Shown one piece after another: positions 36,926 through 60,809 of a stretch of DNA of 64,000 nt. The translations under genes were made by a program, and so were the position numbers. This DNA comes from Antrihabitans auranticaus (lineage in GTDB: Bacteria > Actinomycetota > Actinomycetes > Mycobacteriales > Mycobacteriaceae), in assembly GCF_016481275.1 (NCBI RefSeq), contig NZ_JAEMNW010000002.1, forward strand, positions 310,001-374,000, read 5' to 3'. Numbering within the stretch: position 1 is the stretch's first letter; the number at the start of each line of letters is the position of its first letter. The notes below the pieces were generated by a model that saw only the letters and a program-made list of their open reading frames with translations, did no database searches and was not told the DNA's origin.

Positions 36926-37947
<1,022 letters not shown>

Positions 37948-37948
<1 letters not shown>

Positions 37949-38805
37949 TGCCGAAAACAGTTGTCATCACCGGTGCGAACGCAGGCATCGGTCTCGCAAC
38001 CGCGCACGATGTCGCCGCTCGCGGCGCCAAGGTGGTCATGGCGTGCCGGAACCTCGACAAGGCGAAAGCCGCGCGCGAAGAGATCCTGCAGCGCACGCCA
38101 TCGGCCGACCTCGAAATTATTTCGCTCGATCTCTCTTCGCTGGACCACGTCCGGCGCTTCGCTGCCGAACTCGCGGAGAACAATCCGCAGATCGACGCCC
38201 TGATCAACAACGCAGGCGCGTCTCCGGTGGGCCAGCAGTTCACCGAAGACGGCTTCGAGATGCAATTCGGTGCAAACTATCTCGGGCCGTTCCTGCTCAC
38301 CCACCTTCTGCTGCCGAACCTGAAGGCCGCCGAGTCGGGTGACGCGAGGATCGTCCACCTTTCCTCGATCGTGCACAACATCGGCGGTATCGATCCCGAC
38401 ACCTTCCGCGGGCGGAAGTTCTACTTCACGTTGACGGCGTACGCGCAGTCCAAGCTCGCGAACGCGATGTTCAACTACGCGCTCGCACGGCGCCTGCCGG
38501 AGGGGATCGCCACCAACGCGATGCATCCCGGCGGCGTCGACTCGGAGATCTACCGCGACCTGCCGAAGCCGATCTACAGCGTCTTTCGCCTCGCGCTCAT
38601 CTCGGCAGACAAGCCCGCAAAGCTCAGCGCGGACCTCGCACTGGCGCCTGAGCATCGCGGCCGGACGGGCGATTTCCTGACTGCCCAGCGACCACTGCCG
38701 GTCAGCCGGACGGCACGAAACCTCAAAAAGCAAGAAGATCTGTACCTGCGGAGCTGCACTTTCGTTGGAATCGACCCGATTCCGCCGTCGGACCGGAAAA
38801 ACTAG
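37948..38805 (+). CDS. Short-chain dehydrogenase/reductase, retinol dehydrogenase-like
   Basis: 285 residues from the ATG at 37948, overlapping the adoK stop. The cofactor motif is VITGANAGIGLATAHDVA, with ACRNLDKA after the second strand suggesting NADP(H). LINNAGA, VHLSSI, and the catalytic AYAQSK (Tyr and Lys) follow. TNAMHPGGVDSEIYRDL is typical of the retinol dehydrogenase/WW-oxidoreductase subgroup. The substrate is unknown, probably a hydrophobic alcohol or ketone. It lies between adoK and the sensor kinase on the same strand. Confidence 0.88.
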
Positions 38806-41494: not shown

Positions 41495-41826
41495 CGGTCG
41501 CGAAGTCGATCGCGCTGTTCGCGGTCGCCGCGGTGCTCGAGATCGACGGCGCGTGGCTCGTGTGGCAGGGGATTCGGGAGCACCGGGGCATGGTGTGGGC
41601 AGGCGTGGGTGTCTTGGCTTTGGGCGCATACGGATTCGTCGCAACGCTGCAGGCGGATGCGAATTTCGGCCGCATCCTCGCCGCCTACGGCGGCGTGTTC
41701 GTCGTTGGTTCGCTGGCGTGGGGAATGGTGTTCGACGGATTTCGGCCCGATCGCTGGGATGTGGTGGGTGCTGTAATCTGCGTGGTCGGCGTCGGGGTCA
41801 TCATGTACGTCCCACGCGCGGGGTGA
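41491..41826 (+). CDS. YnfA/UPF0060-family small membrane protein
   Basis: 111 residues from a GTG at 41491, the usual length of the family. Four membrane segments are visible. The N-terminal [20 protein letters not shown] carries the conserved membrane glutamate; [15 protein letters not shown] and [21 protein letters not shown] are also typical, and the last helix is [18 protein letters not shown]. The family resembles small multidrug resistance transporters; its substrates are uncertain. Gene order suggests it works with the cysteine-pair protein encoded just before it. Its end overlaps the Fic gene by 26 bp on the opposite strand. Confidence 0.88.
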
Positions 41827-42625
41827 GCGCACGCAGCAGCACGCCGAGGAACGGCCGGTGATCGGGAACACCGTCGCGGCGGAAGGGCATCGAATCGCGT
41901 GAGGCCTGCAGCCAGTCGGCGCGGGTGACCGCTGTGAGGTCAAGCCGCCGACCTGACCGTGCCGCGACACGTTGCAGGAACAGCGTGCCCGTGCGCCCGT
42001 TGCCTTCTCGAAAGGGATGGGTGTGGTTGTAGAGGGCGTACAACTGGGCCAGCCGGTAGGCGAGCACGCTGTCGGTGCCTGTCGAGCCGGCGATCTCTGT
42101 TGCGGTAGTGATTATTTCGGCCATTCGCTCGTCGAGAATATCGACGGGCGCGAACCATGAGTCACCCTTTCGAATGTCGACGATGCGGAGCCGGCCTGCC
42201 CACGAATACACATCGGCGAAGAGTTCCTGATGCAGCACAAGGGGATCCGCGACGCCGTCGGGCGAAGTCGTGCGGGTGTGCATTCGCACCAGGCGGCCGG
42301 CGGTGCTGACGAACTCCAAGTGCTGCAGGGCAGCGGCGTCCTCGATGTCGAAGTTGTTGCGCAACACAGTAGTCCCGGGAATCAGGTAGGGCCTGCGCCG
42401 CGCGATGAGCTTTCGTTGTCGGTGCCCGTGGTTCTCGCGTGCCCGGCCGAGATACTTGCCCAGGTACGCGCCGTACAAGACGCGGCCAAGCAGCAGATCG
42501 ACGAGGTCGCTGGTGTTCTCCGCGGTCGGGCTCCAGCCCTCGAGGGCCTCTGCTGCAATGGTTTGCAGCAGCGCGTCGCGTTGCTGCGCAGTGAGTCTCT
42601 GGTGCAGCGATCCGAAGTCGGTCAC
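41801..42625 (-). CDS. Fic-domain protein with a built-in antitoxin-like N-terminal helix
   Basis: 274 residues from a GTG at 42625. The Fic core at 203-214 reads [12 protein letters not shown]. It keeps the catalytic His and the GNGR nucleotide loop but has Thr instead of the second Arg of HxFx(D/E)GNGRxx[14 protein letters not shown] is the usual N-terminal lead-in. Residues 12-60 resemble a VbhA-type antitoxin ([20 protein letters not shown]), but the Ser/Thr of the inhibitory (S/T)xxxE(G/N) motif is Ala25. Fic enzymes usually attach AMP to proteins. The start overlaps the stop of the upstream nucleotidyltransferase gene by 4 bp. Toxicity or target cannot be judged from the sequence. Confidence 0.88.
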
Positions 42626-43647
42626 CGGTGCGTGAACGACGACGTCGACGCGAGAAAGCCGAGCTTGCGCCTGATGCGGGTGACCTCACGCCCAACTCCG
42701 CGGACCAGCGCGCGGTCGTGCGGCGGGAGCGAGGAGAGTGCCAGTTCGTCGTCGAGCGGCAGGTCCTGCGCGAGTAGTTGGGCGTGATGGTTCCAGCGAA
42801 TCCTGGTGAGAATCACGTGGCACTCGCGTAATACCGATGCGTCGTCGGCATCGAGGTACCGGCTGCCGCCGACAGCGGCGAGACGGTCGACGGTTGCCAG
42901 CGCCGGTACCCCCGCGCTCAGCGCTGCCCAGCGGGAAATCGCTACGATGGGTTGCAGCGCAGCAGCTTTGATGTCGACCCGGTCTTCCCGCGGAGCAAGA
43001 AGTCGGAGCCGCGAGGGGAAGTGCGCACGCGCTGCGAGGGTGTCGGTGAGCATGAAGGAAAGCGCGTTTTCGCGACCGCGTATCGCGTCGAGCAGGGCGA
43101 GCCGCAGGTCGTCGTTCGCGTCGCTGACGGACCGGGCATCGGCGAGGAGACCCGCCATCACTACCCCGCGATCGGCCACGGGGTCCGTTGTCCAGGAAGC
43201 GATTCCAGCAGTCCACTGTTCGGCCGTCCGGCAGAACCGGGCGCGCGAAGCCGTTGCGCCCTTGTCGTCGCCGAAGATCCGGCAGCGATCGAGGATCGCG
43301 TGTACGGACGCTGCGTGGTCGGCCGCGTGCCGCAGTTCGCTGTCCTCGTCGACGACGAGCATTGTCTCGACGTCGGAACCGGGCAGCGCTTCGCCGCGCG
43401 CGGTGCTGCCTGACACGTACCAGTTCCAGCTGGAACGCGACGCGGGGACACCGAATCCCGAGGCCGCGGCGACCCCACTGCGCACTACCGCCGACCAACC
43501 CGCCGCGAGGCGCGTTGGGGGCAGGCCGCGTGTCGCTGCAGCGGTGAGGACAGTGCGAGCGTGCGCTACCGCGTCGACGAGGGCCGCATCGTCGGAAGCC
43601 TCGTCGATCCGCTCGCACAACTCGACGGCGACCTCCGGGACGGACAT
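42622..43647 (-). CDS. Putative nucleotidyltransferase (DUF294/GlnD-like)
   Basis: 341 residues from the ATG at 43647; a GTG at 43707 would add 20 residues of low-complexity sequence, and neither has a good ribosome site. The nucleotidyltransferase signature is YVSGSTARGEALPGSDVETML, about residues 78-98 of this start. The following HAILDRCRIFGDDKGA and a helical C-terminal region resemble the putative substrate-binding domain of DUF294 proteins, which are related to the uridylyltransferase GlnD. The target is unknown. It is followed with a 4-bp overlap by a Fic gene, so two predicted nucleotide-transferring enzymes form one unit. The MMPL gene precedes it on the same strand. Confidence 0.82.
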   Translation of the reverse strand: MSVPEVAVELCERIDEASDDAALVDAVAHARTVLTAAATRGLPPTRLAAGWSAVVRSGVAAASGFGVPASRSSWNWYVSGSTARGEALPGSDVETMLVVDEDSELRHAADHAASVHAILDRCRIFGDDKGATASRARFCRTAEQWTAGIASWTTDPVADRGVVMAGLLADARSVSDANDDLRLALLDAIRGRENALSFMLTDTLAARAHFPSRLRLLAPREDRVDIKAAALQPIVAISRWAALSAGVPALATVDRLAAVGGSRYLDADDASVLRECHVILTRIRWNHHAQLLAQDLPLDDELALSSLPPHDRALVRGVGREVTRIRRKLGFLASTSSFTHR

Positions 43648-43722
43648 AGGCCCGATTGTGGCATCAGCGCTCGCCGGCCGCGCGGCAACGTCCGGCTCGT
43701 GACCCACTCGCCGAACAGGAAC

Positions 43723-45984
43723 TCACGACCGAGGGGACGTCCGCGGTCGTTCCGCAACCCGGACCCGTCGGCCGGGAAACCACCAGTTCCACGGACCGAA
43801 CAAGCGCATCAGCGCGGGCACCAGCACCAGCCGGATGACGATCGCGTCGATCGCAATGGCTATGGCCAGCGCGAGACCGATCTGTTTCAGTTCGAGTACC
43901 TCGGCCGTCACGAAGCTGCCGAACACGGCGACCATGATCGCCGCGGCCGCAGTGATCGGCCGGGCGGTGTGGTCGATGCCTTCGCACACGGCGTTCTCGT
44001 TGCGATTCGGGTCTGCGGTATCCCCGCCCTCCCAGCTCTCCTTCATGCGCCCGATGAGAAAGACCTCGTAATCCATCGACAGGCCGAAGAGCATCGCGAA
44101 CACGATCGTGGGGAGAAAGACCTGCAGGAATCCGGGGCTGTGGAATGCCAGCGCTGACGAGCCCCAGCCCCACTGGAAGATCGCGACCGTGAGGCCGATC
44201 GCCGCTCCGGTCGCAAGTAGGTTCATCGCGATCGCCTTGAGCGGCAGTAACAGGCTGCGGAAGATGAAGATCAGGAAGATCAGCGACGACAACAGCACCA
44301 GCGTGACGACCCACGGGAACTTGCTCGTGATCTCGTCGGAGATATCGATGAATTCCGCCGTCGCGCCACCGACATAGATCTCCGGTCCGTTGTCGGCACT
44401 GACAGCGGCCGCGGCAGCGCGAAGATCCAGGATCAGGTCACTTGCTTCGGTGGTGTCGAACGAAGTCGCCGGAATCGCGGTGATCATCATCCGCCCGTCG
44501 ACGGTCTGCGGGAAGGCATCCACGACATCGGGAAGATCCTGCAGCGCGGAGACGAATGCCATTGCGTCGGTCGTGTTCTGTCCACTGAGCGGGCCTTCGT
44601 CGGCACCCGTGACGACGATCTCGACGGGAGACAGCAAACCGGCCTGGAATTTCTCTTCGAGAACATCGAGGCCGTGTCCGGTCGGAGTGCCCGCCAGCGC
44701 GGGCAGGCCCATGTCCAGGCCGTACTTCAGGTCGGTCACGGGATAGGCGGCGAGGAGAAGGGCTGCGGTTGCGGCGAATCCGAAGAGCACCGGCCGCCGC
44801 ATGACAACCCCGGCCCAGCGTGCCCACATCCCAGCGGACCCGTCATGGTCGGCCTCGGAATGTGCGGGCCGCAGTCGCGCGGGGAGTGCGCCGCGATTCA
44901 CCGCGGGTCCGAGCGTGGCCAACAGCGCAGGCAGCAAAGTCAGCCCGACGATAAGAGTGCACACGACCGCGAGTCCGACGCCGACCGCAATTGCCCGGAA
45001 GATCGGCGCTTCGACGATGACCAGGGAGCACAGCGAGATCACGACGATGAGTCCGGAGGCGACGATGTTCTTGCCCGTGGTGGCGAGGGCAGCGCCGAGA
45101 GCGGCCGTGATCTCGGCCTCCTCGCTCCGGTGTTGGACGCCGCGAACCGCCAGCTCCTCGCGGAACCGCGTGACGAGGAACATTGCGTAGTCGATACCGA
45201 TTCCGGTGCCGATCATGGTGGCGATCGAGACGACGAGCGATGGCAGTGGCAAGAAGTGGGTCAGCAGGAACAGTGTGCCGATGCAGGAAAGAATTCCAGC
45301 AACCGCGACCGATATCGGCACAATTGCGGCAACGAAGGCGCCCAGCGCCAAGATCAACAGGATGAGTGCGACTGGAATGCCGAATGTCTCGGCCCGCTCG
45401 ACGTCGACCGTCTCGGCGTCGACGATGCCGTTCTGGATCGGCGAGTATCCGGTGACGACGACATCGATGTCAGCGGTCGAGGCGGCTGCCAGCGTTTCGG
45501 CGAGGTCGGCGGCTGTCGCGGATCGCTCCGCAACGCTGCCGTCGAGGCCGACGACAGCGAATGCGGACCTGCGGTCCTGCGAAATCTGGCGGTTGTCGAC
45601 GGGGCCCTGGACCGATACCACGCCGTCGGTCGTGCGGACGGCGTCGAGCGTGCGGGAGACGAGCGATCGGTACTCGGTCGAATCGAATGTGCGATCGGCA
45701 GAGTCGAATACGACGATGTTCTGTTCGGCGCCGAGTTGCGGGAAATACTCCTCGATCATCCGGTCGACAGACGTCGACTCGGCGACGTCAGCTGTGAAGT
45801 CCGGCGCTTCGAGGCGTGAATTCAGCGCGGGGTAGGCAAGGGCACACGCGACGAGGAGGGCTGCCCAGAGCGCAAGTAGGGGTCGGCGAAGCCGGGCGAT
45901 CGCCTGTGCCCATCGGTAACCGAGGCTAGTTCCCGCGGCCTCGACGGGCGGGCGTGGGCGGACGGTCGAGGTCGTATCGGCCAT
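43723..45984 (-). CDS. MMPL/RND-family transporter
   Basis: 753 residues from the ATG at 45984 with AAGGGG upstream. The layout is the standard twofold one: a membrane helix at about 33-53 (LLALWAALLVACALAYPALN), an outer loop of about 130 residues, five or six helices with the MMPL signature GTGIGIDYAMFLVTRFREEL, a second outer loop, and a matching set ending in FAMLFGLSMDYEVFLIGRMKESW. These proton-driven exporters move lipids and lipopeptides in mycolata. The size fits the shorter actinorhodin-cluster type rather than 950-residue mycobacterial MmpLs. It diverges from the NRPS gene across 373 bp, so export of the NRPS product is a natural hypothesis. Confidence 0.92.
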   Translation of the reverse strand: MADTTSTVRPRPPVEAAGTSLGYRWAQAIARLRRPLLALWAALLVACALAYPALNSRLEAPDFTADVAESTSVDRMIEEYFPQLGAEQNIVVFDSADRTFDSTEYRSLVSRTLDAVRTTDGVVSVQGPVDNRQISQDRRSAFAVVGLDGSVAERSATAADLAETLAAASTADIDVVVTGYSPIQNGIVDAETVDVERAETFGIPVALILLILALGAFVAAIVPISVAVAGILSCIGTLFLLTHFLPLPSLVVSIATMIGTGIGIDYAMFLVTRFREELAVRGVQHRSEEAEITAALGAALATTGKNIVASGLIVVISLCSLVIVEAPIFRAIAVGVGLAVVCTLIVGLTLLPALLATLGPAVNRGALPARLRPAHSEADHDGSAGMWARWAGVVMRRPVLFGFAATAALLLAAYPVTDLKYGLDMGLPALAGTPTGHGLDVLEEKFQAGLLSPVEIVVTGADEGPLSGQNTTDAMAFVSALQDLPDVVDAFPQTVDGRMMITAIPATSFDTTEASDLILDLRAAAAAVSADNGPEIYVGGATAEFIDISDEITSKFPWVVTLVLLSSLIFLIFIFRSLLLPLKAIAMNLLATGAAIGLTVAIFQWGWGSSALAFHSPGFLQVFLPTIVFAMLFGLSMDYEVFLIGRMKESWEGGDTADPNRNENAVCEGIDHTARPITAAAAIMVAVFGSFVTAEVLELKQIGLALAIAIAIDAIVIRLVLVPALMRLFGPWNWWFPGRRVRVAERPRTSPRS

Positions 45985-46357
45985 CGCAGCCCCTTGGTGT
46001 CGCGGCGGTTCGGTAGTTCCTGAATCTACGGTCGAAAGCGGAGAAACTGCAAGCGCCTTTCAGGTATCTATATGCGTATAAATGCATGTATTGCCGCCAA
46101 GCCAAGCCCGGACAAGTTCGCGTAGGACAGATCGGTGCCGGCCTACTGTGGCTGCCGACCCCGTCGCCACGGTGGCGGATGTGCTCTGCAAGTGTGCATT
46201 TCGTCCTGTTTCGAAGGCGGCGGTGTAACGGATCGGGTTGCTCGAGACGACAGGATGATTGCGGCTGTCCGCCGCGATCATCGGTACATTTGTGGGACTG
46301 CCTCGGTAACCGCCAGGGGCGGACTCGCCGGGTCGGATAGGGCTCCAAGTTGAAGTT
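45985..46357. promoter_or_regulatory. 373-bp divergent control region between MMPL and NRPS genes
   Basis: No convincing gene; short open frames here lack ribosome sites and coding bias. An AT-rich island at 46062-46092 contains an imperfect palindrome at 46070-46089 (ATATGCGTATAAATGCATGT, 14 of 20 symmetric positions). Reading leftward it offers TATAGAT as a possible -10 for the MMPL gene. No IdeR-type iron box or MbtH-like frame was seen. Confidence 0.5.
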
Positions 46358-49300
46358 GTGCGGGGATTGAACGCCGAAGAGATACGTTCATTTCCGCTTT
46401 CGCATGCCCAACTCGGTATCTGGCATGCGCAGCAGATTGCTGCCGACGCACCGATCACCATCTCCCAGTACGTCGAAATCAAGGGACCCTTCGACCCGGA
46501 GTTGCTCGCCGCGGTCGGCGTGACCGCGACGCACGAGTTCGGATCCCCGATGCTGCGGATCGTGGAAACCGATTCCGGTCCGCGTCAGATCGTCGACAAG
46601 ACGCTCGCCTCGTCGTCAGCGCAGCTCGACTTCCGTGGCCATACGGACCCGGTCGAAGCAGGTCTTGCATGGATGCGCGAGGAGTCGGCCGCTCCGCTGG
46701 ACATCGTTCGCGACCGACTCTGCGTCAACGCGATATTGCGGGTCGGCGACGACCACTACTTCTGGTTCTCCCGGATCCACCACATTGCGCTCGACGGGTT
46801 CGGCGCGATGAACGCGATGAACCGCTCCGCCGAGCTGTACACCGCACTGGTCTCCGGGACAGCGGCGCCGGCGACCCGTGCAAGCCCGCTCGAAGTGCTT
46901 GTCGACGAGGAAGCCCGCTACCGGGAGTCGACCCGATTCCTGTCCGACGGTGAGCACTGGGCGCAGCAGACCGCCGAGTTCCCCGGTCCGGTCACCTTGT
47001 CGCGATCGAATCGGGCGGGCCTCGCAGCCGGGTCGCTGATCTGCAGCGACGGCATGTCCGACGACTTCGACCGCGCGCTCGAACGGCTGAACACGACTCC
47101 GGCGCCGTTGCTCGTCGCCGCTTTCGCAGCGTTCCTGGCGCGGATGACCGCCGTCGACGACGTCGTGCTGAGCCTGCCCGTATCGGCGCGCACCTCGTTC
47201 GCCCTACGCCGGTCCGGCGGCATGGTGTCGAACGTCGTACCGCTGCGACTGCGAGTCGACCGCGACACCACGGTCGACGGCTTGGTCGCGGATGCCCAGA
47301 CGGCGTTGGTCGGCGCCCTGCGTCATCAGCGCTACCGCCACGAGGACATCCGCAAGGATGCTGGTCTCGCGCAGCGAGACATGTTCGGTCCGGTTGTGAA
47401 CATCATGATGTTCCACTCGGAGATCAAGCTCGGCGACGTCGTCGGCAGGCTGCACGTGCTCTCGACCGGTCCCGTCGAGGACCTCGCGGTCAATCTGTAT
47501 CCCGCCGTTGCCGGTGAACACACGCACATCGACTTCGAGGCGAACCCGTACCGCTACGACCACGCCGAACTGCGCGCTCACCACAGCCGGTTCCTGCAGT
47601 TCTTCGAGCGATTCGTCGCTGCGCGCGGTTCCGATCCGGTGCTGGCCGTCGACCTGCTCGACGAGACCGAGCTCGCCCTTGTCGCGCCCGTGCGCGGCGA
47701 GGCTGCGTCATCGCCGCGAACCCTCGCGCGGATCTTCGCGGATGCCGCGGCCGATCGACCCGACGCCATCGCCCTCGCCGAAGGTTCGACCGTGGTCTCG
47801 TACCGGCAGCTCGACGGTTGGTCGAATCACTTGGCGCGCGAGCTCATCGAGCGCGGCGCGGGTCCTGAAACGTTCGTCGCGGTGGCGATCCGTCGCTCGA
47901 TCGCGTCGGTCGTCGCGGTGTGGGCCGTCGCAAAATCGGGCGCTGCGTTCGTGTCGGTCGACCCGGATTATCCGGCTGAGCGCGTCGGCTTCATGATCGC
48001 CGATTCGAACGCGGTTCTCGGGCTCACATCGGCCGCCGACCTGGAGAACTTGCCAGGCAATGTCTCGTGGCACGTCGTGGACCCCGCCGAATGGCATGAC
48101 GCCGTGCCGGCGGAGCCTGTTCTGCAACCGGTGCGCATCGATTCGGTCGCCTACCTCGTCTACACCTCCGGCTCGACTGGACGGCCGAAGGGCGTAGCCG
48201 TTTCGCACTCCGGACTCGCGAACTTTGCCGCCGATCAGCAGCGGCGCTACCGGACGTCGGGTGAGTCGCGGATTCTGCACGTGTCGTCGCCCAGCTTCGA
48301 CGCGTCGGTGTTCGAGTACCTGCTTGCGTTCGGCGTCGGCGCGACCCTCGTCGTCGCTCCGGGCGATGCGTTCGGCGGTGCCGCACTCCACAGCCTCGTT
48401 GCGGCACAGCGCGTCTCGCATGCGTTCATCACGCCTGCCGCGCTGGCCTCGGTCGCTCCCGAGGGGCTCGACTGCCTGACCGACCTCGTAGTCGGCGGTG
48501 AGGTCGTGCCCGCCGAGTTGGTGGACCGATGGGCCGAGGCAGGCCGGCGCGTATTCGTCGCATACGGCCCGACCGAGACGACCATCATGACGACGATCAA
48601 CCCGCCGCACCGGCCCGGGGATACGCCGCTGATCGGCGGACCGATCCAGGGGACCCGAGCGGTTGTCCTCGACTCGTATCTGCGGCCGGTGCCGATCGGC
48701 GTTCCGGGGGAGCTCTACATCTCGGGCGTCGGTGTCGCACGCGGCTATCACCGACGTGGGGCGTTGACGGCGTCTCGATTCGTCGCCGATCCATGGGGTG
48801 CGGCGGGCGCCCGGATGTACCGGACCGGCGACATCGTCGCCTGGACGCCCGGCCTGACGCTCCAATTCATCGGGCGCACGGACGAACAGGTCAAGTTGCG
48901 CGGCCTGCGAATCGAACTCGGTGAGATCGATGCGGCGCTTGCGGCGCATCCTTCGGTGGGCTTCGGCGCGACCGTCCTGCGCACCTCGAGCCGTGGCGAA
49001 CAGGCGCTCGTTGCCTACGTCTGCCCCAGACACGAATGCAGTATCGACACAGTCGAGCTGGCGGCGCATCTGCACAGGATTCTGCCTGCGCACGAAGTGC
49101 CCGCCCATATCGTCGAACTCGATTACATCCCGCTGACGCCGGTCGGAAAACTCGATCGCAAGGCCCTGCCGGAACCGACGTACGCGGCCGAGTACCAAGA
49201 GCCGCGCACGCCCGTCGAGCACCTGCTCGCCGAGACGGTGGCGGACATCGTCGGCGCAACCGCGGTCGGCCGCGACGACAACTTTTTCGCACTCGGCGGA

Positions 49301-52300
49301 AACTCGCTTTCAGCAACACAATTGGCAGCACGCGCAGCCGCCGCACTCGGCGCCGAGCTGACAGTTCGCGACATCTTCGAAGCGCCTACCGTCGCCGCTC
49401 TGGCGGTCCGAGCAGCGGCGCGTACCGAACGATCGAGCTCACCGCGTTTGGTGAGCGGTGTGCGCCCGAGTGTGGTCCCGCTGTCACCGGCGCAGCAACG
49501 TCTGTGGTTCCTGAACCGGCTCGATCCGGCGTCGCCGGGGAGCAACATCCCCATTGCGCTGCGGCTGCGCGGACTACTGGACGCGGATGCCCTCGACGCA
49601 GCGATCCGCGACGTGCTCGTGCGGCACGAGGCACTGCGCACCCGGTATCCGGACACCGACGACGGTCCGCGTCAAGTCGTCCTCGATGCGGATGTGTTTG
49701 CGCTGCAGCGCAGTACGTGCGCCGAAGCCGAGCTGGATGACCGGCTGCTGGCATTCGCCGCGCACGGTTTCGACCTCGAGACCGAGCTTCCGGTGCGCGC
49801 ACTGCTACTCGGCGTCACTGCGGAATACCACGCGCTTGCCGTTGTCGTGCACCATGTTTCGGCCGACGGCTGGTCGATGGGTCCGCTGGCGCGCGATATC
49901 GCGCTGGCCTACGCTGCCCGGACCGCCGGCGGCGGACCGCAGTGGGCGCCGCTGCCGGTGCAGTACGCGGACTACACGCTGTGGCATCGCGAACTGCTCG
50001 GCGACGAGAGCAACCCGGCAACGGTGGGCGCCAAGCAGATCGACTACTGGCGACAGACCCTGGCGGGGCTCCCGGACGAGGTCCAGCTGCCGACGGATCG
50101 CGCCCGGCCGACGGCCCCGACATCTCGTTGCGGGCAAGTCGAATTCGACATCAATGCCGGTACTCATGCGCGCCTGCTCGCGTTGGGACGCAGCCACGAC
50201 GCGACGCTGTTCATGGTCGTCCACTCGGCGTTGGTGGTGTTGCTCAACCGGCTGGGCGCGGGCGACGACATCGCGATCGGAACGCCGATTGCCGGCCGCG
50301 GAGAACGTGGCCTCGACGATCTTGTCGGGATGTTCGTCAACACCCTGGTCCTGCGCACGTTGCCCGAACCCGGCGAGTCGTTCGCCCGGTTGCTCGAATC
50401 CTGCAGGGCGGCAGACCTCGCCGCATTCTCCAACGCAGACGTTCCGTTCGAGCGTCTCGTGGAAGTGCTGAACCCGGTTCGGTCGGCGGCTCGACATCCG
50501 TTGTTCCAGGTGCTGCTCGCGCTGCAGAACCTCGACCCGGCGCACCTGGAGTTGCCCGGCCTGTCGGTCGCGGTCGACGAGATCGATACGGCGTTGTCGC
50601 CGTTCGATCTTCACCTGACTCTGGTCGAGGCGCGCGCAGCCGACGGCGCGCCGGCCGGTCTTGCCGCGCGACTGCGCTACGCGAAAGACCTCTTCGACGA
50701 GGCGACGGCCATCGGCTTCGTCGCTACCTTCGGCCGGATTCTCGACGCCGTCCTGGCCGACCCCGCCGCTCCGATCGGTGACATCGCAATCTGCGACGCG
50801 GCCGAGCTCGACGCGTTACTCGTCGAGCCGAACGCGACTGCAGTCGAACTGCCGGACCTGACCCTGGCCGACCTGTTCGACGCGCAGGTCCAGCGCAGTC
50901 CCGATGCGATCGCAGTCGTGTACGAGGGTGCTGCGCTCACGTACGCAGAATTCGACGCGACGGCAAACAGGCTGGCGCGCAAGCTGATTGCCTCCGGCGT
51001 CGGCACGGAGTCGCGGGTGGGCCTCGCGCTCGCGCGATCCGTCGAGCTGCTGATCGGCATGTACGCCGTCGTGAAGGCCGGTGCCGCGTACGTGCCGATC
51101 GATCCGGATCAGCCGATCGAGCGGACTCGCTACGTCGTCGATACCGCCGAATGCGAATGCGTACTGACTGCCGGTGCCGTGGCCCTGGACCTCGCGCTGC
51201 CGACCTACGCGATCGACCGCCTCGACCTTTCCGGATTCAGCCCGGCGCCCGTTACCGATACCGACCGGGTGCGCAGGCTGCGCTCGGCGAACACCGCCTA
51301 CGTCATCTTCACCTCCGGTTCGACCGGGCGGCCGAAGGGTGTCGAGGTGTCGCATCGGTCGGCCGCAAACCTGTTGTGCTGGATGCAGACCGACCTGCCG
51401 ATCACCGCCGACGACCGCGTCGTCTTCAAAGCCCCGGTCACCTTCGACGTGTCCGTGTGGGAATGCTTCGGTGTCCTGGGCGTCGGCGGTCGGCTGGTCG
51501 TGCTCGCGCCCGACGGCCACCTCGACCCCGCGCACCTGATGGCGGTGATCGAGCGCGAGCACGTCACGATCGCCGAGTTCGTACCCACGATGCTGGATGC
51601 GCTGCTGTCGATGCCCGAGTTCGAACTGCCGGCGAGCTTGCGCATGATCTACGTCGGCGGTGAAGCGATCTCGCCCGCAACCGCGCGGCAGGTGACCGGT
51701 CGCGGCCTCCGGCTCGGCAACTTCTACGGCCCCACCGAGGTTGCGGTCACGGCGACGTACTTCGAGATTGCTCCTGCTGCACCGTATTCGGTCATGCCGA
51801 TCGGCCGGCCAGTGTGGAACACGACAAGCTTCGTGCTCGACGAACGGTTGCATCCGGTGCCGCCGGGAGTACCGGGAGAGCTGTATCTCGGCGGTGTCCA
51901 ACTCGCGCGCGGCTACGCGAACCGGGCCGACCTGACGGCGGACCGATTCGTCGCGAATCCGTTCGACGGATCGGGCACACGGCTGTATCGCACCGGCGAC
52001 CTCGTCAAGTGGAATTCGGCGGGCGAACTGATCTATCTGGGGCGTACCGACTTCCAGGTGAAGTTGCGCGGCCTGCGAATCGAACTGGGCGAGATAGAAA
52101 TCGCACTGCTCGCCGTGCCCGGCGTCGCACAGGCGGTGGTTCTCGTCCGGGACGACGGCTCCCACGGCGAGCGCCTGGTCGGCTATCTCGTGCCTGCCGC
52201 CGACCGCGTTCTCGACGTCGCCGACATCCGCCGGGCCCTTGCCACACGGTTGCCCGCGTACATGGTCCCCACCGATTTCGTCGTGCTGTCCGCACTGCCG

Positions 52301-55300
52301 ATCGGTTCCGCGGGCAAGCTGGACCGGAATGGGTTGCCTGCGCCCGACCACGCGCCCGTTCCGTACCGCGCGCCGCGAACACCGGTCGAGCAGATCGTCG
52401 CCGAAGTTCTGATCGAGGTTCTCGGTCTGCATCAGGTCGGTCTGGACGACGAATTCTTCGCCCTCGGCGGCAATTCGCTTGTCGCTATTCGGGTTGCGGC
52501 ACGCATTTCGGCTGCGCTGGGTGCCGCTGTGCCGGTGCGTGCGCTGTTCGAGGCCACGACGGTCGGTCAGCTTGCCGACCAGATCGAACTGGTGAGCGCG
52601 GGCGGCCATGCGCGTCCCGTGCTCGTAGCGCACGAGCGGCCCGAGCGTGCACCGCTGGCGCCGGCTCAGCAGCGGATCTGGTTCCTGAATCGACTCGAAC
52701 CCGAAGGCGCGCGTTACAACATCCCGTTGGCAGTGCGGTTCACCGGCCACCTCGACGTCCCCACCCTGGGCGCCGCCGTCCACGACCTGCTGGAGCGCCA
52801 CGAGTCGTTGCGCACCGTATACCCGGAATCCGTTTCGGGGCCGTATCAATCGGTCCACAGTGCCGAACCGCAGTCCCTGGAACCGGTTTTCGTGGCCGCC
52901 GACGAACTCGGGGCACACCTGCAGCGTTTTGCCGCACGGGGATTCGATGTCACGACTGACATGCCAGTGCGCGCCGCCCTGTTCCGGCTCGCTGCCGACG
53001 ACCATGTGCTCGCGCTCGTCATGCATCACATCGCGTCGGACGGAATGTCGATCGTCCCGCTGGCGGCAGACCTTGTCAGGGCTTTCTCAGCACGCGCCGA
53101 AGGGTATGCGCCCCAGTGGGTTCCGCTGCCGGTCCAGTACGCCGACTATGCCGTGTGGCAGCACGAACTGCTCGGCAGCGAGACGGACACCGAATCGCTC
53201 GCCACCCGCCAACTCGACTACTGGGCCCGTGCGCTCGACGATCTACCCGGTCGCACTGAGTTGCCCGCCGACCGGCAACGGCCGCCGAATCCCACCCAGC
53301 ACGGCGAGTCGGTCGGGTTCGACATTCCCGGCGAGCTGGTCGTCGGAATTGCGGCGCTCGCCGACGACCATCACGTCAGCCAGTTCATGGTGGTACACGC
53401 CGCGCTCGCAGTCTTGTTGCGCCGGTACGGAACCACCGACGACGTCGTGGTCGGCACTGCCGTGTCGGGTCGCGGCGACGCTGCCCTCGACGGACTCGTC
53501 GGAATGTTCGTCAACACACTCGCTCTGCGCGTTGCCGTCGAACCGGAAGCAACCTTCACCGCCGTTCTCGAACGAGCGCGCGACGCCGTGCTCGGCGCTC
53601 TCGGGCACAGCGACATCCCGTTCGACAAGGTCGTCGAAGTGCTCGACCCACCCCGCGAGCGTGGCGTTCACCCCTTCTTTCAGGTGGCGTTGCTCTTCGA
53701 CGATGCCGGTTTGACCGAGTTCGACCTGCCGGGTGTGCACACACGCGTCGAGCACATCGATCCGCATGTTGCTAAGTTCGACCTGCAGCTGACGATCGTG
53801 CCCCAGCCCGGTGGTGCGGTCCGTGGCGTTCTCACCTATGCCACAGAGCTTTTCGACGAGTCGACGGCACAATCCGTCATCGACCGCTTCCTGCGGATCC
53901 TGTCGTCGGTGGTCGCCGACTCGACCGCAACGGTCGGCGACATCGCCATCCTCGACGAGGACGAGATAGCTGCACTCGCACCGGTGCGCGGTCCTGATTC
54001 GACGTCGTCGCGGCTGCTCCCGGACGTCTTGGCCGCAGGCGCCGCGAAGAATCTCGACGCGGTGGCAGTGCTGTTCGATGGTGCCGAACTTCGCTATCGG
54101 CAGCTCGACGAGCGATCGAATCGACTGGCGCGCTTGCTGATCGACGACGGCGTCGGGCCCGAGTCCTGCGTCGCACTCGCTATGTCGAGGTCGATCGAAT
54201 TCATCGTCGCGGTATGGGCTGTCACCAAGACCGGAGCGGCATTCGTGCCCATCGACGTGCGGCAGCCGGTCGACCGCATCGCGCACATTCTCGCGCAGTC
54301 CGGGGCGGGCCAAGGCTTCCGGTCGGGTTCGGGGACACCCCTTCCCGAGTCGCTGCGCTGGTTCGACGTTGCAGAAGCCGAGGAACTGGCCGCAGGTAAC
54401 GAGAGCTCGCACGTGCCCGCAGCCGACCGCGGACTGACCGCCGACCACGTTGCCTACGTGATTTTCACGTCCGGATCGACCGGGCTGCCCAAGGGCGTCG
54501 CTGTCACACACAGCGGACTCGCGAACCTCGTCGACGAGCAGCTGTCCAGGTTCGGCGTCAGCGCGGATTCGCGAGTCCTGCACGCTGCATCCCCGAGCTT
54601 CGATGCCGCGGTATTCGAACTGCTGATGGCGTTCGGCGCGGGTGCCACGCTCGTCGTGTCACCGGCCGATGTGATCGGCGGGGCCGAGCTGGCCGGCGTG
54701 ATCGCGGACGGCAAGGTGACTCATGCCGTTCTCACGCCCGCCGTGCTCGGATCCGCAGACCATCGCGGTCTCGATCACCTGGAAACAGTCGTCGTCGCGG
54801 GCGATGTGTGCCCGCCCGAACTGGTCGCCCGCTGGGCACCGGGCAGGCGAATGTTCAACGCCTACGGACCGACCGAAACCACGGTGTGGGCGACGGTGAC
54901 CACACCGCTGGCGGTGGGCGCTACCGTCGCGATCGGTGCGCCGATTCGCGGCTTCGACGCCCTGGTCCTCGATTCGCGGCTGCATCCGGTTGCGCCCTGC
55001 GTCGTCGGCGAGTTGTATCTCGCCGGTCCGGCACTTGCGCGCGGATACGTGGGTCAGCCCGGCCGGTCGGCGGACCGGTTCGTGGCGAATCCGTATTCAG
55101 GCGGCGACGGCAGGATGTATCGCACGGGCGACCTCGTCCGGTGGCTGCCGGGCGGCGATCTCCAGTTCGTCGGACGCACCGACTTCCAGGTCAAGATCCG
55201 TGGCCTGCGAATCGAACTGGGTGAAATCGACACCGCGCTCGGTGCTGCGCCCAATGTCGAATTCGCTGTCACGATCGGCTATTCGGCGGGCGGGCACACC

Positions 55301-58300
55301 CAACTCGTCGCCTACGTTCTGCCACTGCCGGGCGCCGCGGTCGACGCCGTCGGACTCCGCGCCTGGCTGCGCCGGGTGCTGCCTGCCTACATGGTTCCGG
55401 CGGTCGTCGTGCCACTGCGTGAAGTACCGCTGACTCCGGTCGGCAAGCTCGACCGCAACGCGCTGCCGGTGCCCGACTTCGGGGCTTCCGCGCGCAGCTA
55501 CCGCGCGCCGGAATCACAGCTCGAGATCGTCGTCGCGAGTGTGTTCGGTGATGTGACCGGGACGGGCCGCGTCGGTCTGGACGACGACTTCTTCGAACTC
55601 GGTGGCAACTCGTTGTCCGCGACGCAGGTGGTCGCCCGCATCAGGGCCGAACTGGGCCGCCATGTGCCCGTCCGTGTCGTGTTCGACGCTCCGACTGTCG
55701 CCGAATTCGCCGCCGCGATAGAACCGATCGCGCGGACCGACCGTCCCGCGCTTGCCGTCGGTGCCCGGCCGGAGCGAATTCCACTCTCTCCGGCTCAGCT
55801 TCGAATGTGGTTCCTCAATCGGATCGATCCGGCGTCGGCAGCCAGCAATCTGCCGCTCGCGCTGCGCCTGGTCGGCGACCTCGACACCGACGCGCTGCAA
55901 CTGGCCATCGGCGACGTCATCGAGCGCCACGAAGCTTTGCGGACCATCTATCCTGACGCCGCGGTCGGCCCGCAGCAGGTCGTGTTACCGGCCGATCGCG
56001 TTGTGCCGAGGCTGGTTGCGATCGATTCGGATCGGAATTCGGTGCGGCGGGAGATCGCCGAAACGGCGCTGCGGGGCTTCGATATCACTGCCGAAGTGCC
56101 CCTGCGCGCCAGGCTGTTCCGTGTCGAGGCGGACGAATACGTCCTCGCGATCGTTGTGCATCACATCTGCGCCGACGGGTGGTCGCTCGGACCCCTCGCG
56201 CGTGATGTGAGCGTCGCGTACGCGGCACGGTCCCGCGGCGAGGCACCGGCGTGGGTGCCGCTGCCGGTGCAGTACGCCGACTACAGCGTGTGGCACAGAG
56301 TTGCCATCGGCAACGACGACGACCCGGCTTCGACGACCGCCCAGCAGGCACGCTACTGGCTGCGCCAGCTCGCGGGTGTTCCCGAACAGCTCGACCTCCC
56401 GACCGACCGGCCCCGTCCGGCAGTGCAGAGTTACGCCGGGCACACCGTGCGTTTCGCGATTGCGCCGCAGACCCACGACGGCATTCTCGACTTTGCCGTG
56501 CGGCACCGAGCTTCACCGTTCATAGTCACGCACGCCGCACTAGCCGTGCTGCTCGCACGGCTCACCAGCACGGGGGACATCGCGATCGGCGCACCGATCG
56601 CCGGGCGGGGTGAACCGGAACTCGACGAGCTGATCGGCATGTTCGTCAACACGCTCGTGCTGCGGACGGAGATCGATCCGTCGAAGGGGTTCGCCGAGGT
56701 TCTGGCGGCAGTGCGAGACGTCGACCTGACCGCATTCGGCAACAGTGACCTCCCGTTCGAGCGGCTCGTCGAGTTGAAGAACCCGGCGCGGTCGACCGCG
56801 CGCCACCCGCTCTTCCAGGTGGCGCTCACCTATCAGAACCTGCCGCACGTCGAGGTCACGCTGCCCGGACTGCGGCTGTCCCAGGTGCAAACCGATCTGG
56901 CCGTTGCGAAGTTCGATCTGCATCTGACGCTCGAAAGCCGCTACGACGCCAACGGCATACCGGAGCGCATCGACGGTTCCTTGACGTATGCGACGGACCT
57001 GTTCGACGAATCGACCGTTGCCGGTTTCGCGAAGCTCTACACCGACCTTCTCGCGCGACTGCTTCGCCATCCGCTGCTTCCGGTCGGGGATTTCGACATC
57101 GTCGGCGACAGCGATCGCGACCGGCTGCTGGTCGCGCAGAACGCAACCACGCGAACGCTTGCCGCGTCGACCCTCGCGGACGCTCGGCCCCGCACGGCCG
57201 AGGACGACACAGCTCTCGTGTTCGGCGCGGAGGTCGTCAGCTACGGCGAATTCGATCGTCGCGCAAATCGATTGGCGCGGGCCCTGATTGCGCGTGGCGC
57301 GGGTCCCGAGACGGTTGTGGCCGTCGCGATCCGCCGTTCGGTCGATCTGATCGTGGCGATCCACGGGATCGTGAGAGCCGGTGCCGCATACGTTCCGATC
57401 GATCCGGGTCAGCCCGCGGCGCGGACCGCGTACGTTCTCGACACGGCGGCGCCGTCGGTTGTGCTCACGACTTCGGAGGCGTCCGAATTCGCGGGCTACG
57501 AGGTCTTGCGCGTCGACGACTCAGCAATGCTCGAAGGTTTCGAATCCGCGCCTGTGACCGATGCCGATCGCCGGCTGCCGCTGCACCCGGCGAACACGGC
57601 GTACGTGCTCTTCACCTCCGGTTCGACCGGGCGGCCGAAGGGCGTCGCCGTGTCGCATGCGGCGATCGGCAACCGGCTGGCGTGGATGCAGGACGAGTAT
57701 TCGCTGACCGCGTCGGACGCGGTGCTGCAGAAGACGCCGATGACCTTCGACGTGTCGGTCTGGGAGTTGTTCTGGCCGTTGCAGGTCGGTGCCAGACTGG
57801 TCATCGCTGCACCCGACGGTCACCAGGATCCCGCCTACCTCGCGCGCTTGATCACCGAGCAGTCGGTCACGACGGTGCATTTCGTACCCTCGATGCTTGC
57901 CGTCTTTGCGGCCGAAGCTGCTGCCCGGCAATGCCATTCGCTAACCCGTATTTTTGCGTCCGGTGAAGCGCTGCCCGCCTCGGTCGCGATGCTCGCGCAA
58001 GAGATGTTGCCGCACAGCGCATTGCACAATCTGTACGGACCCACCGAGGCCGCGATCGACGTGACCTATCACCCCGTCGGACCCGTGGCCGCCGCTACTG
58101 TCCCGATCGGTATGCCGGTCTGGAACACCCGGGTCTACGTGCTGGACTCGCGCCTGCACGCCGTCCCGACCGGCGTGGTCGGCGAGCTGTACCTTGCCGG
58201 GGACCAGTTGGCGCGCGGCTACCTCGGCAGCCCGGATCTGACCGCCGACCGGTTCGTTGCCAACCCGTTCGGACCGGGCAGGTTGTACCGGACAGGCGAT

Positions 58301-59827
58301 CTGGTGCGGTGGAACCGTGACCACGAACTCGAATACGTGGGGCGCACGGACTTTCAGGTCCAGCTGCGCGGTCAGCGAATCGAACTCGGTGAGGTCGAAG
58401 CGGTCCTCGGCGCAGTTGCCGGTGTTCTGCAGGCCGTGGCCGTCGTACGCTCCGAGCAGTTGGTCGGGTACGTCGTCGGGTCGGAGATCGATCCAACGGC
58501 AGTCCTCGAAGCCGCGCGCCGGGTGCTGCCGGCCTACATGGTGCCCGCGCACGTCGTCGCACTCGACGCGCTGCCGCTGACGTCGAACGGCAAGCTCGAC
58601 CGTGCGGCGCTACCCGCCCCGACCGGCACCCAGCGGCCGTACCGCGCACCCGAGACCCCGCTCGAAACGGCCATCGCCGACGCGTTCGCCGAGTTGCTCG
58701 GGGTCGAGCGAGTCGGGTTGGACGACGACTTCTACGCTCTCGGCGGCAATTCGCTGCTTGCCGCGCGTGCCGTCGCGCGCATCCGCGATGTTGCTGCGGT
58801 GGACCTGCCGCTGCTGTGGTTCTTCGCGGACCCGAATCCCGGCTCGCTTGCGCGCCGCGCACTCGCGGCAGGCACCCTGTCGGAAAGCGCACTTGCAGAG
58901 GATGATTCAGCACTCGGTGTCCTGCTGCCGTTACGCGGCGGCAGCAACGAGCCGCTTTTCTGCGTCCACCCGGTGGTCGGGCTGTCCTGGTGCTACGCCG
59001 GAATGACCGCACAGCTGAACCACGACCGGCCGGTGTACGGACTCCAGTCCCCGGTGATCACCGAACCTGACATCGGTAGCCCGAGCATCGAGCAACTGAC
59101 CGATCGCTACGTCCGCGAAATTCGGGCCACCCAGCCCGAGGGTCCGTATCGCCTGCTCGGCTGGTCGCTGGGCGGGGTGATCGCGCATGCGATCGCGGTA
59201 CGGCTGCAGCGCGAAGGTGCGCAGGTGTCGTTCCTTGCGATGCTCGACAGCGGCTTCGGCGCGGGGTTGGACGCAGCGGGGCTGGACGCAGCGGGGTTGG
59301 ACGCAGCGGGGCTGGACGCGGGGAAGTTGGACGCAGCGGCGTCGGACACCGCCGTCGCGGCGCAGGATCGACTGCCGCGGGCCCGCGACCTGCTCGACGG
59401 TCTCGGCCTGGACCTGGGCACGGCGGTCGATCTGATCGATGCGCTCACGCTCGACGCAGTTGCGCCGACAGCAGGCCGCCTCGCGGAGCTTCTGGCTGCA
59501 CTGCCCGGCAGCTACAGCGGCCTCACACGGGAACGAATCGAGCGGATGATCGTGGCGGCAAGCGGATCCGCGGATGCGATTCGCTCGCACAGCCCCGGGG
59601 TATACGAGGGCGATGTTGTGTTCTTCACTGCGATCGAGGACGATCCCAGCGGGACGCGATTGGCGGATCTCTGGCGCCCGTTCGTCAGCGGTGCGGTCCG
59701 CAACCATGCGGTGCCGGCAGATCACTGGCGAATGATGTCAGCGGCTGCGACGTCGACGATCGCTCCGATCGTCGAAGCGGAATTGTCCGGTGAATTGATG
59801 AAGGTGGGAAACGACTATGCATCGTGA
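46358..59827 (+). CDS. Four-module non-ribosomal peptide synthetase with starter condensation and terminal thioesterase domains
   Basis: 4,489 residues from a GTG at 46358; a TTG at 46368 is an alternative and neither has a clear ribosome site. Domain order is C-A-T, C-A-T, C-A-T, C-A-T-TE. Condensation motifs are HHIALDG (141), HHVSADG (1165), HHIASDG (2223) and HHICADG (3268). Adenylation core motifs (YTSGSTG/FTSGSTG) are at about 602, 1651, 2703 and 3752. Carrier serines in GGNSL are 983, 2040, 3085 and 4132; the thioesterase serine in GWSLGG is 4270. No epimerase, methylase or reductase domains are seen. By the ten-residue adenylation code, module 4 reads DVWHFSLIDK, a serine code. An N-terminal condensation domain implies N-acylation, so the product is probably an acyl tetrapeptide ending in serine. 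MMPL diverges; an antigen-85-like gene overlaps its end. Confidence 0.95.
59263..59340 (+). repeat. 15-bp tandem repeats inside the NRPS thioesterase domain
   Basis: Units of GGGGYTGGACGCAGC follow one another four to five times, alternating T and C at the fifth base; the fourth unit is shortened and the last is altered (GGGAAGTTGGACGCAGC). They encode GLDAA repeats just after the nucleophile region, where thioesterases have a variable lid. Confidence 0.85.
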
Positions 59828-60809
59828 CAGGCTGCTCCGGCGCAAGAACCGGTTGGCTCGTTTTGTGAGTCTCGGGCTCATCGGAGCGCTCGCCATGCTG
59901 TGGCCTGCGGCGTCGGCGGGCGCTGCACCGACGCCGAATGCGCCGGGCGTGGTCGAGGTCTACGTCTACTCGCCGGCGATGGCGAAGAACATTCTGCTCA
60001 GGGTGATTCCGTCCCGGAGTTCCGGTTCACCGACGCTGTATCTCCTGAACGGTGCCGCCGGTGGTGAAGAGGCGCCGTGGGACTGGCTCGAGCACACCGA
60101 CGTCGTCAATTTCCTCTCCGACAAAGACACCAATGTCGTGATCCCGATCGGCGGGCGCGAAAGCTACTACACCGACTGGATTGCCGACGACCCCGTTCTC
60201 GGCCGCAACAAGTGGCGGACCTTCCTCACCCAAGAGTTGCCGCCGATCATCGATTCGATGTTCTCGACCAACGGCCGGAATGCGATTGCCGGACTCTCCA
60301 TGTCGGGAACCGCGGTGCTTGCCCTGGCGGAATCGGCGCCCGGACTGTATCGCAGCGTCGCGTCCTACAGCGGTTGCGCAGGCACCAGCGATCCGATCGG
60401 CCGTGCGTATGTGACGGCAGTGGTCGAGGGGCGCGGCGGCGGCAACGTCGCGAATATGTGGGGTCCGCCGAACAGTCCGCTGTGGGTCGAAAACGATGCG
60501 TTGATCAACGCGGAGAAACTGCGGGGGACCGCGCTCTACATCTCGGCGGGCAACGGTCTGGCAGGTCCGCACGACAACCTCGCCGGCCGCAATGTCGGGG
60601 GAGATCCTGTCTTCCTGGCCCAGCAGCTCGTGGTCAGCGGCACGATCGAGGCGGCCATCAATCAGTGCACGCAGAACCTGCGCGCGCGACTCGACGGTCT
60701 CGGCATTCCCGCGCAGTACAACTTCCGCCCCGCCGGCACGCATTCGTGGGACTACTGGCAGGACGACCTCCACACGTCCTGGCCGCTCATTGCGAACTCC
60801 CTGCGTTGA
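59817..60809 (+). CDS. Antigen-85-like secreted acyltransferase/esterase (mycolyltransferase family)
   Basis: 330 residues from the ATG at 59817, with AAGGTGGG 9 nt upstream and inside the end of the NRPS gene (11-bp overlap). A signal peptide (about 1-37, ending SAGAA) sends it out of the cell. The fold follows antigen 85: [28 protein letters not shown], the nucleophile elbow GLSMSGTAV with Ser161, [18 protein letters not shown] with the catalytic glutamate, and [12 protein letters not shown] with the histidine. Antigen 85 enzymes move mycolic acids between trehalose and arabinogalactan. Being coupled to an NRPS gene is unusual; it may acylate or release the peptide outside the cell, but this is not shown. 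Confidence 0.9.

Follow-up and report, generated by a model that had tools for sequence, protein, structure and literature searches.

A nonribosomal peptide synthetase gene overlapping a MytC-type mycoloyltransferase gene in Antrihabitans auranticaus: a possible route to O-mycoloylated peptides

The DNA considered here, referred to as the window, is a stretch of 64,000 nucleotides from Antrihabitans auranticaus in which a four-module nonribosomal peptide synthetase (NRPS) gene overlaps the start of a gene for an acyltransferase that resembles the mycoloyltransferase MytC. The synthetase and the acyltransferase probably form a functional pair. The reading developed from sequence comparisons, to which a probability of about 0.42 is given, is that certain nonribosomal peptides of Nocardiaceae, as a class, would be O-mycoloylated outside the cell membrane, by dedicated MytC paralogs whose genes accompany those of the assembly lines, and would in this way be fixed in the mycomembrane. 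The window (G000:C12:310001-374000) comes from a genome of 6.5 Mb in 24 contigs, and the genus Antrihabitans is placed in the Nocardiaceae by the lineage record. In the labels used below, G000 is the window genome, G002 is Antrihabitans stalactiti, G001 to G003 are congeners, G027 belongs to another genus, and L and C numbers denote loci and contigs.

Open reading frames (ORFs) and Pfam domains confirm the layout given in the preliminary description, namely an MMPL transporter gene, a four-module NRPS gene and a gene for an acyltransferase that is predicted to be secreted. The 11-bp overlap between the last two is seen directly in the start and stop codons: the acyltransferase start (ATG, 59817) is preceded by a possible ribosome site, AAGGTGGG, and the NRPS stop is the TGA at 59825-59827. 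The domains of the synthetase (condensation, C; adenylation, A; thiolation, T; thioesterase, TE) and the catalytic codons of the acyltransferase are as follows.

46358-59827, + strand: NRPS gene, 4489 amino acids, C-A-T-C-A-T-C-A-T-C-A-T-TE (Pfam: four Condensation, four AMP-binding, four PP-binding, one Thioesterase)
46388-47662, + strand: C1, starter-type (lipid-loading) condensation domain by its best Protein Data Bank (PDB) matches, 7c1k/7c1h; HHxxxDG motif present
47798-49171, + strand: A1, adenylation signature read as DAFFVGAIM
50939-52342, + strand: A2, signature read as DVWEYGFVT, identical in A. stalactiti and G027
54095-55468, + strand: A3, signature read as DAFVVAAVW
57239-58618, + strand: A4, signature read as DVWHFSLID
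58943-59752, + strand: TE, terminal thioesterase from the domain search, predicted to release the product
59817-60809, + strand: MytC-type mycoloyltransferase gene, 330 amino acids (Pfam PF00756), its start overlapping the NRPS stop by 11 bp
60297-60299, + strand: codon of catalytic Ser161, aligned with MytC Ser189
60648-60650, + strand: codon of Glu278, aligned with MytC Glu310
60741-60743, + strand: codon of His309, aligned with MytC His341

Identity of the acyltransferase

The acyltransferase had been labelled as antigen 85, and structure matches, trees and sequence identity instead place it nearest to MytC/Cmt1. The PDB gave 31 matches with E values of 0.01 or less, led by MytC/Cmt1 with 260 bits, against 156 for PS1 (MytA) and 106 for antigen 85-A. 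Sequence identity is 45% with MytC (290 residues aligned) and 35% with MytA (PS1; 259 residues aligned). The catalytic triad of MytC is Ser189, Glu310 and His341 (available text of PMC11927696). The corresponding Ser161, Glu278 and His309, together with Cys187 and Cys284, are invariant in 20 aligned sequences, and the triad and both cysteines align with those of MytC. A signal peptide can be read by eye at the N-terminus, and the acyltransferase is probably exported.

In a 99-row tree, for which linkage was defined as an NRPS ORF within 4 kb, all 30 linked rows fall within the 60-row branch to which MytC belongs (SH-aLRT 99, a Shimodaira-Hasegawa-like likelihood ratio test). A bootstrapped tree of 65 rows placed all 18 linked rows in a 37-row MytC branch with support of 93/84; the deeper branches of this tree that part the MytC branch from the MytA-like copies are starred, and the branch leading to MytC is long. 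Antigen 85 proper (FbpA-C/MytA) was rejected as an assignment, as neither trees nor identity group the window enzyme with the canonical copies of its own genome. By these comparisons the acyltransferase is classed as a MytC-type mycoloyltransferase. Elsewhere in the window genome (G000:C18:441-444 kb, L092), three consecutive canonical Ag85/MytA-like genes are found close to an AMP-binding ligase gene, at what is probably the mycolate core locus.

The locus in relatives and the MMPL gene

The two other genes that matter for a comparison with relatives lie on the opposite strand.

43723-45984, - strand: MMPL transporter gene, MmpL3-like (ORF list and Pfam MMPL), adjoining the NRPS gene here without being a conserved member of the unit
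42622-43707, - strand: DUF294 protein gene, whose ortholog adjoins the NRPS gene in A. stalactiti with no MMPL gene between

The locus in A. stalactiti is laid out much like that of the window. Its NRPS signatures (DAFFLGAIM, DVWEYGFVT, DAFVIAGVW and DVWHVSLID) are near-identical, its acyltransferase is 69% identical and starts with TTG in a 14-bp overlap with the NRPS gene, and, as in the window, a DUF294 gene lies in front of the NRPS gene and map and cobQ lie behind the acyltransferase gene. No MMPL gene is found between the DUF294 and NRPS genes; the best MMPL homolog of A. stalactiti (61% identity) is on another contig, next to a TetR gene and, at a greater distance, an acyl ligase gene and a polyketide synthase-like gene. 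In all, MMPL homologs of 52-61% identity occur at four loci in three congeners, two of them with a TetR gene beside, and the roughly 9 kb that flank each of the four on both sides showed no NRPS domain. In G027, a six-module NRPS (a frame of 6765 amino acids that shares the A2 signature and has two modules for Ser) is adjoined at its end by a gene for an acyltransferase 62% identical to that of the window, and another MytC-type gene is present on the opposite side of the NRPS gene. The 51.9 kb read there gave no tblastn hit at E up to 1e-10 to MMPL, DUF294, map or cobQ. The MMPL gene was accordingly dropped as a conserved member, being missing from the locus in both A. stalactiti and G027 and having its congeneric homologs away from NRPS genes; it is not a conserved partner of the NRPS-acyltransferase unit.

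MytC-type genes near MMPL genes were also observed at L088 (G000:C18:328200-348100) and L096, with no NRPS in the stretch read, and the MytC-type genes of L088, L096 and L117 form one clade.

Recurrence of the NRPS-MytC pairing

The pairing was counted in the genus and on named contigs, with linkage defined as the presence, no more than 1.5 kb away, of an ORF with a C or T domain and the clade defined as the 60-row MytC branch, a 49-row cut of the clade having proved too small because of unresolved branches. The congeneric count took in 51 family genes from four genomes (>100 bits, at least 220 amino acids aligned); fragments and weaker hits were excluded, as were L093 and L094 as duplicate loci, and L084, which is next to an NRPS gene, was dropped as too short because a contig end cuts it. 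Linkage was found for 10/26 genes in the MytC branch versus 0/25 outside (Fisher p 7e-4), the window genome alone contributing 3/5 versus 0/5. On the named contigs, an uneven sample found by similarity to the window enzyme, the figures were 19/33 and 0/13 (p 2e-4); both p-values treat related genes as independent.

Matches to the window enzyme with E values of 1e-90 or less came from 99/151 genomes of the family. Sixty family regions were read, drawn from the first 44 matches listed outside the genus (of which three shared a region and one was left out) and the last 20 listed, several of them cut by contig ends. Among these matches, 14/60 regions had an NRPS ORF within 1.5 kb, which in 11 was upstream, on the same strand and within 1 kb, and in a further 2/60 an NRPS lay further off. 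Linked rows make up 18 of a 24-row branch of Nocardia and Antrihabitans in the 99-row tree, the others being 5 unlinked rows and one undecided; a Nocardia branch of 15 rows nested there has 14 that are linked and one, cut by a contig edge, that is undecided. An all-linked 12-row branch of a 97-row tree was set aside as unusable for linkage, most of the unlinked congeneric rows having been left out of that tree; its counterpart in the 99-row tree, where those rows are included, is the 24-row branch just described.

The linked synthetases are of several types: four-module enzymes, long Nocardia/Antrihabitans lines, enzymes encoded beside a Lys/Orn monooxygenase gene, and short enzymes with a terminal C domain. 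Two loci have a MytC-type gene and an adjoining Lys/Orn monooxygenase gene, one with an eight-module NRPS (G000:C1:378574-408167; L087, L128, L129) and one with a six-module NRPS (G003:C2; L116, L135); perhaps the product of such loci is a mycolate-modified hydroxamate siderophore. A single-module NRPS, C-A-T-C with a C-terminal C domain and the signature DTVLLGACS, was observed at G002:C12:196730-202098 (L057, L144) and G000:C19:434533-438984 (L152), and only the A. stalactiti copy has a MytC-type gene beside it. A broken MytC-type gene lies downstream of an NRPS gene ending in a C domain at G002:C22:195692-196406 (L105), and at L198 (G133:C24:1-16300) MytC-type genes form an array on one strand, four of them nearly complete and others partial.

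Predicted product and proposed pathway

The A4 signature, DVWHFSLID, is one that we take to specify serine under the specificity code. No epimerase motif or domain was flagged in the window NRPS. Residues 11-435, which cover C1, matched the PDB sequences 7c1k (219 bits) and 7c1h (217 bits), followed by EntF (186 bits) and the CDA starter domain (164 bits), and by its best match C1 is similar to starter domains that load lipids. The structure 7C1H is the starter C domain of RzmA, in whose cluster no acyl ligase or acyl carrier protein gene was identified, according to the available text of PMC7804268.

Protein O-mycoloylation is a recent discovery for which the donor, the enzyme and the serine acceptor have been worked out in Corynebacterium glutamicum: MytC moves mycolate from trehalose monomycolate (TMM) to Ser15 of PorA in vitro (available text of PMC11927696). 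About 30 O-mycoloylated proteins have been reported, modified at Ser and less often at Thr (available text of PMC11066868).

In the pathway proposed for the window, the starter C domain, assigned by similarity, would take a fatty acyl group from acyl-CoA or from an acyl carrier made elsewhere. The four modules would then build acyl-X-X-X-Ser, and the TE domain would release the acyl-tetrapeptide. The product would cross the membrane by an exporter, which may be the MMPL protein in the window species only. Outside, the MytC-type enzyme, with its predicted Ser161-Glu278-His309 triad, would transfer mycoloyl from TMM to a peptide hydroxyl, most simply that of the serine, a step proposed because MytC does the same to serine 15 of PorA. 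The O-mycoloylated peptide would be anchored in the mycomembrane. This mechanism as a whole, in which an N-acylated tetrapeptide is made, released, exported and O-mycoloylated by a dedicated enzyme, is put at somewhat less than an even chance. A lipopeptide that is then mycolylated had already been suggested for this locus, and it is still the best reading, given the recurrent pairing of an NRPS with a mycolate-family acyltransferase and the starter-like first C domain; the part of that suggestion in which the MMPL protein is the exporter fares less well, that link not being conserved.

A serine or threonine acceptor was looked for in the other linked lines. At 9/11 linked loci read at length (ten and that of G027, without G001 C38, which has a 3.5 kb gap, and G002 C22, where the enzyme gene is broken), a Ser or Thr signature occurs somewhere in the NRPS line, although at G003 C12 and G001 C13 it is in an ORF of the line other than the adjoining one. 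These signatures are compatible with a Ser/Thr acceptor, and an enrichment is suggestive at most.

Weighing of the alternatives

A number of findings weigh against the proposal that Nocardiaceae make O-mycoloylated nonribosomal peptides with dedicated MytC paralogs. The MytC clade is multi-copy, and most of its genes are without an NRPS (16/26 in the genus and 14/33 on the named contigs, one of these at a contig edge); among the matches listed, 44/60 family regions had no NRPS. All 19 linked named rows are from Nocardia, five of them from N. cyriacigeorgica strains, and the rows from Rhodococcus, Rhodococcoides and Gordonia are all unlinked. L106 is convergent and L107 divergent, and these are thus not operonic. 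The type of linked NRPS found beside a Lys/Orn monooxygenase gene implies that not all linked lines make plain lipopeptides. Neither G002 C12 nor the enzyme-adjoining ORF of G001 C41 has a Ser/Thr signature, none is present in the last two modules (the sole part read) of L162, L166, L172, L175 and L210, and an unlinked control in the window genome, weak because some of its loci are fragments, has both Ser and Thr codes in 1/6 loci. In the 97-row tree no clear sister relationship joins the acyltransferase of G027 to the window enzyme, and strict co-inheritance of the window-type NRPS and enzyme across genera was dropped for this reason. In the trees, linked rows are interleaved with unlinked ones, linkage needing about a dozen changes, and this, together with the position of the G027 enzyme, indicates that the pairing was probably gained or lost several times.

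The interleaving and the placement of the G027 enzyme would also suit a coincidence, in which a MytC-like enzyme serves envelope proteins or trehalose and comes to lie near NRPS genes only because the two families have many members, which cluster in variable regions, as would the many MytC-clade genes that stand alone, some in an array (L198). This explanation is unlikely in the face of the complete lack of NRPS genes near the other family members in both counts, the overlap and gene order kept in A. stalactiti beside map and cobQ, and the 15-row Nocardia branch with its single undecided row. A secreted hydrolase that cleaves an ester or lactone of the NRPS product for release, self-protection or iron recovery is less likely again. 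Fes and IroE cleave siderophore esters, and Fes-like enzymes presumably belong to PF00756, the broad Pfam family that includes the window enzyme; the Lys/Orn monooxygenase gene (F35) beside the enzyme at two linked congeneric NRPS loci is also what would be expected for hydroxamate siderophores. However, no enterochelin esterase was among the 31 PDB matches, the best of which are mycoloyltransferases, and the window enzyme falls inside the mycoloyltransferase tree. Just as improbable is a single pathway of all three genes, the compact island of the preliminary description, with the MMPL protein exporting the lipopeptide. MMPL proteins are known lipid exporters and the MMPL gene is a divergent neighbour, 373 bp from the NRPS gene, but the trio does not stay together: the NRPS has no MMPL neighbour in A. 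stalactiti or in G027, and the congeneric homologs lie away from NRPS genes, two of the four beside a TetR gene. The remaining pair of NRPS and acyltransferase is better supported and more specific than a description of the letters alone could tell, and its mycoloylation step is proposed by analogy with MytC, the nearest characterized relative of the enzyme.

Neighbouring genes

The Fic protein, DUF294 and MMPL genes (41801-45984, minus strand) are tightly packed, with a 4-bp overlap and a 15-bp gap, and are possibly one operon, of which only the DUF294 gene was found beside the NRPS gene in A. stalactiti. The statement that no tailoring, MbtH or acyl-CoA ligase genes lie nearby holds for MbtH and the ligase, neither of which is present among the neighbours scanned (37861, 38830, 40634, 41801, 42622, 60845, 61699 and 63209). 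For tailoring genes the same neighbours offer a sole exception, an SDR oxidoreductase gene (37861-38805) about 5 kb past the MMPL gene. The single MbtH match in the window genome is on another contig (C18:14757). A scan for sigma-70 promoters and terminators gave hits no more numerous than in shuffles, and a tRNA scan of the window found none.

Comparison with known systems

No report of an NRPS and a mycoloyltransferase in one pathway was found in the literature searched, which lay mostly outside subscription journals and was available in part, and in the same literature O-mycoloylation as natural-product tailoring is a use of protein-type mycoloylation that was not found. The preliminary description knew of no pathway with the three-part layout; a Nocardia NRPS with an "esterase" is already in print, and the available text of PMC7413640 does not name the latter a mycoloyltransferase. 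There, Nocardia gene cluster family 6 (GCF 6) comprises NRPSs of 7-13 modules, always with the esterase and other genes. The Nocardia loci described here are alike in having a MytC-type gene directly after the NRPS gene, whereas the window NRPS has four modules. Some linked Nocardia loci also carry an epimerase-like gene (F8) and an enoyl-CoA hydratase gene (F11); the nitropropane dioxygenase and metallopeptidase of GCF 6 were not among the genes scanned at these loci. We infer that GCF 6 and the Nocardia NRPS-MytC clusters, which agree with its description in part, are the same.

The starter C domain is shared with lipopeptide NRPSs such as RzmA, CDA and the Rhodococcus families of PMC5550956, a study that predicts many rhodococcal lipopeptides and whose main text, as available, does not contain "esterase", "mycolyl" or "MMPL". 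The RzmA locus and the window also have in common that no acyl ligase is seen in either (PMC7804268), but the available texts of PMC7804268 and PMC5550956 describe no dedicated mycoloyltransferase for any of these families, unlike the window.

In mycobacteria, the glycopeptidolipid locus combines an NRPS with MmpL genes and yields an envelope lipopeptide. The window shares the NRPS beside an MmpL gene and the presumed envelope lipopeptide; it differs in that its scanned neighbours include no glycosyl- or methyltransferase gene and in that the MMPL link is not conserved.

If the proposed mycoloylation is correct, NRPS products would be a second class of acceptor, which would help to explain the several MytC paralogs in each Nocardiaceae genome, would offer a means of finding what large orphan NRPS genes produce, and would be a further way of anchoring secondary metabolites in the mycomembrane. 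The NRPS-MytC pairing is itself a directly testable rule for genome mining.

With antigen 85 and MytA the window enzyme shares the superfamily and a presumed TMM donor, but it lies on a separate branch and has only the 35% identity to MytA given above. The closest known system is MytC/Cmt1 of C. glutamicum (PDB 4H18, 8QHF), with which the triad, both cysteines and 45% of residues are held in common. MytC acts on proteins such as PorA, whereas the window enzyme is encoded by a gene that overlaps an NRPS gene, an arrangement that suggests a small peptide acceptor.

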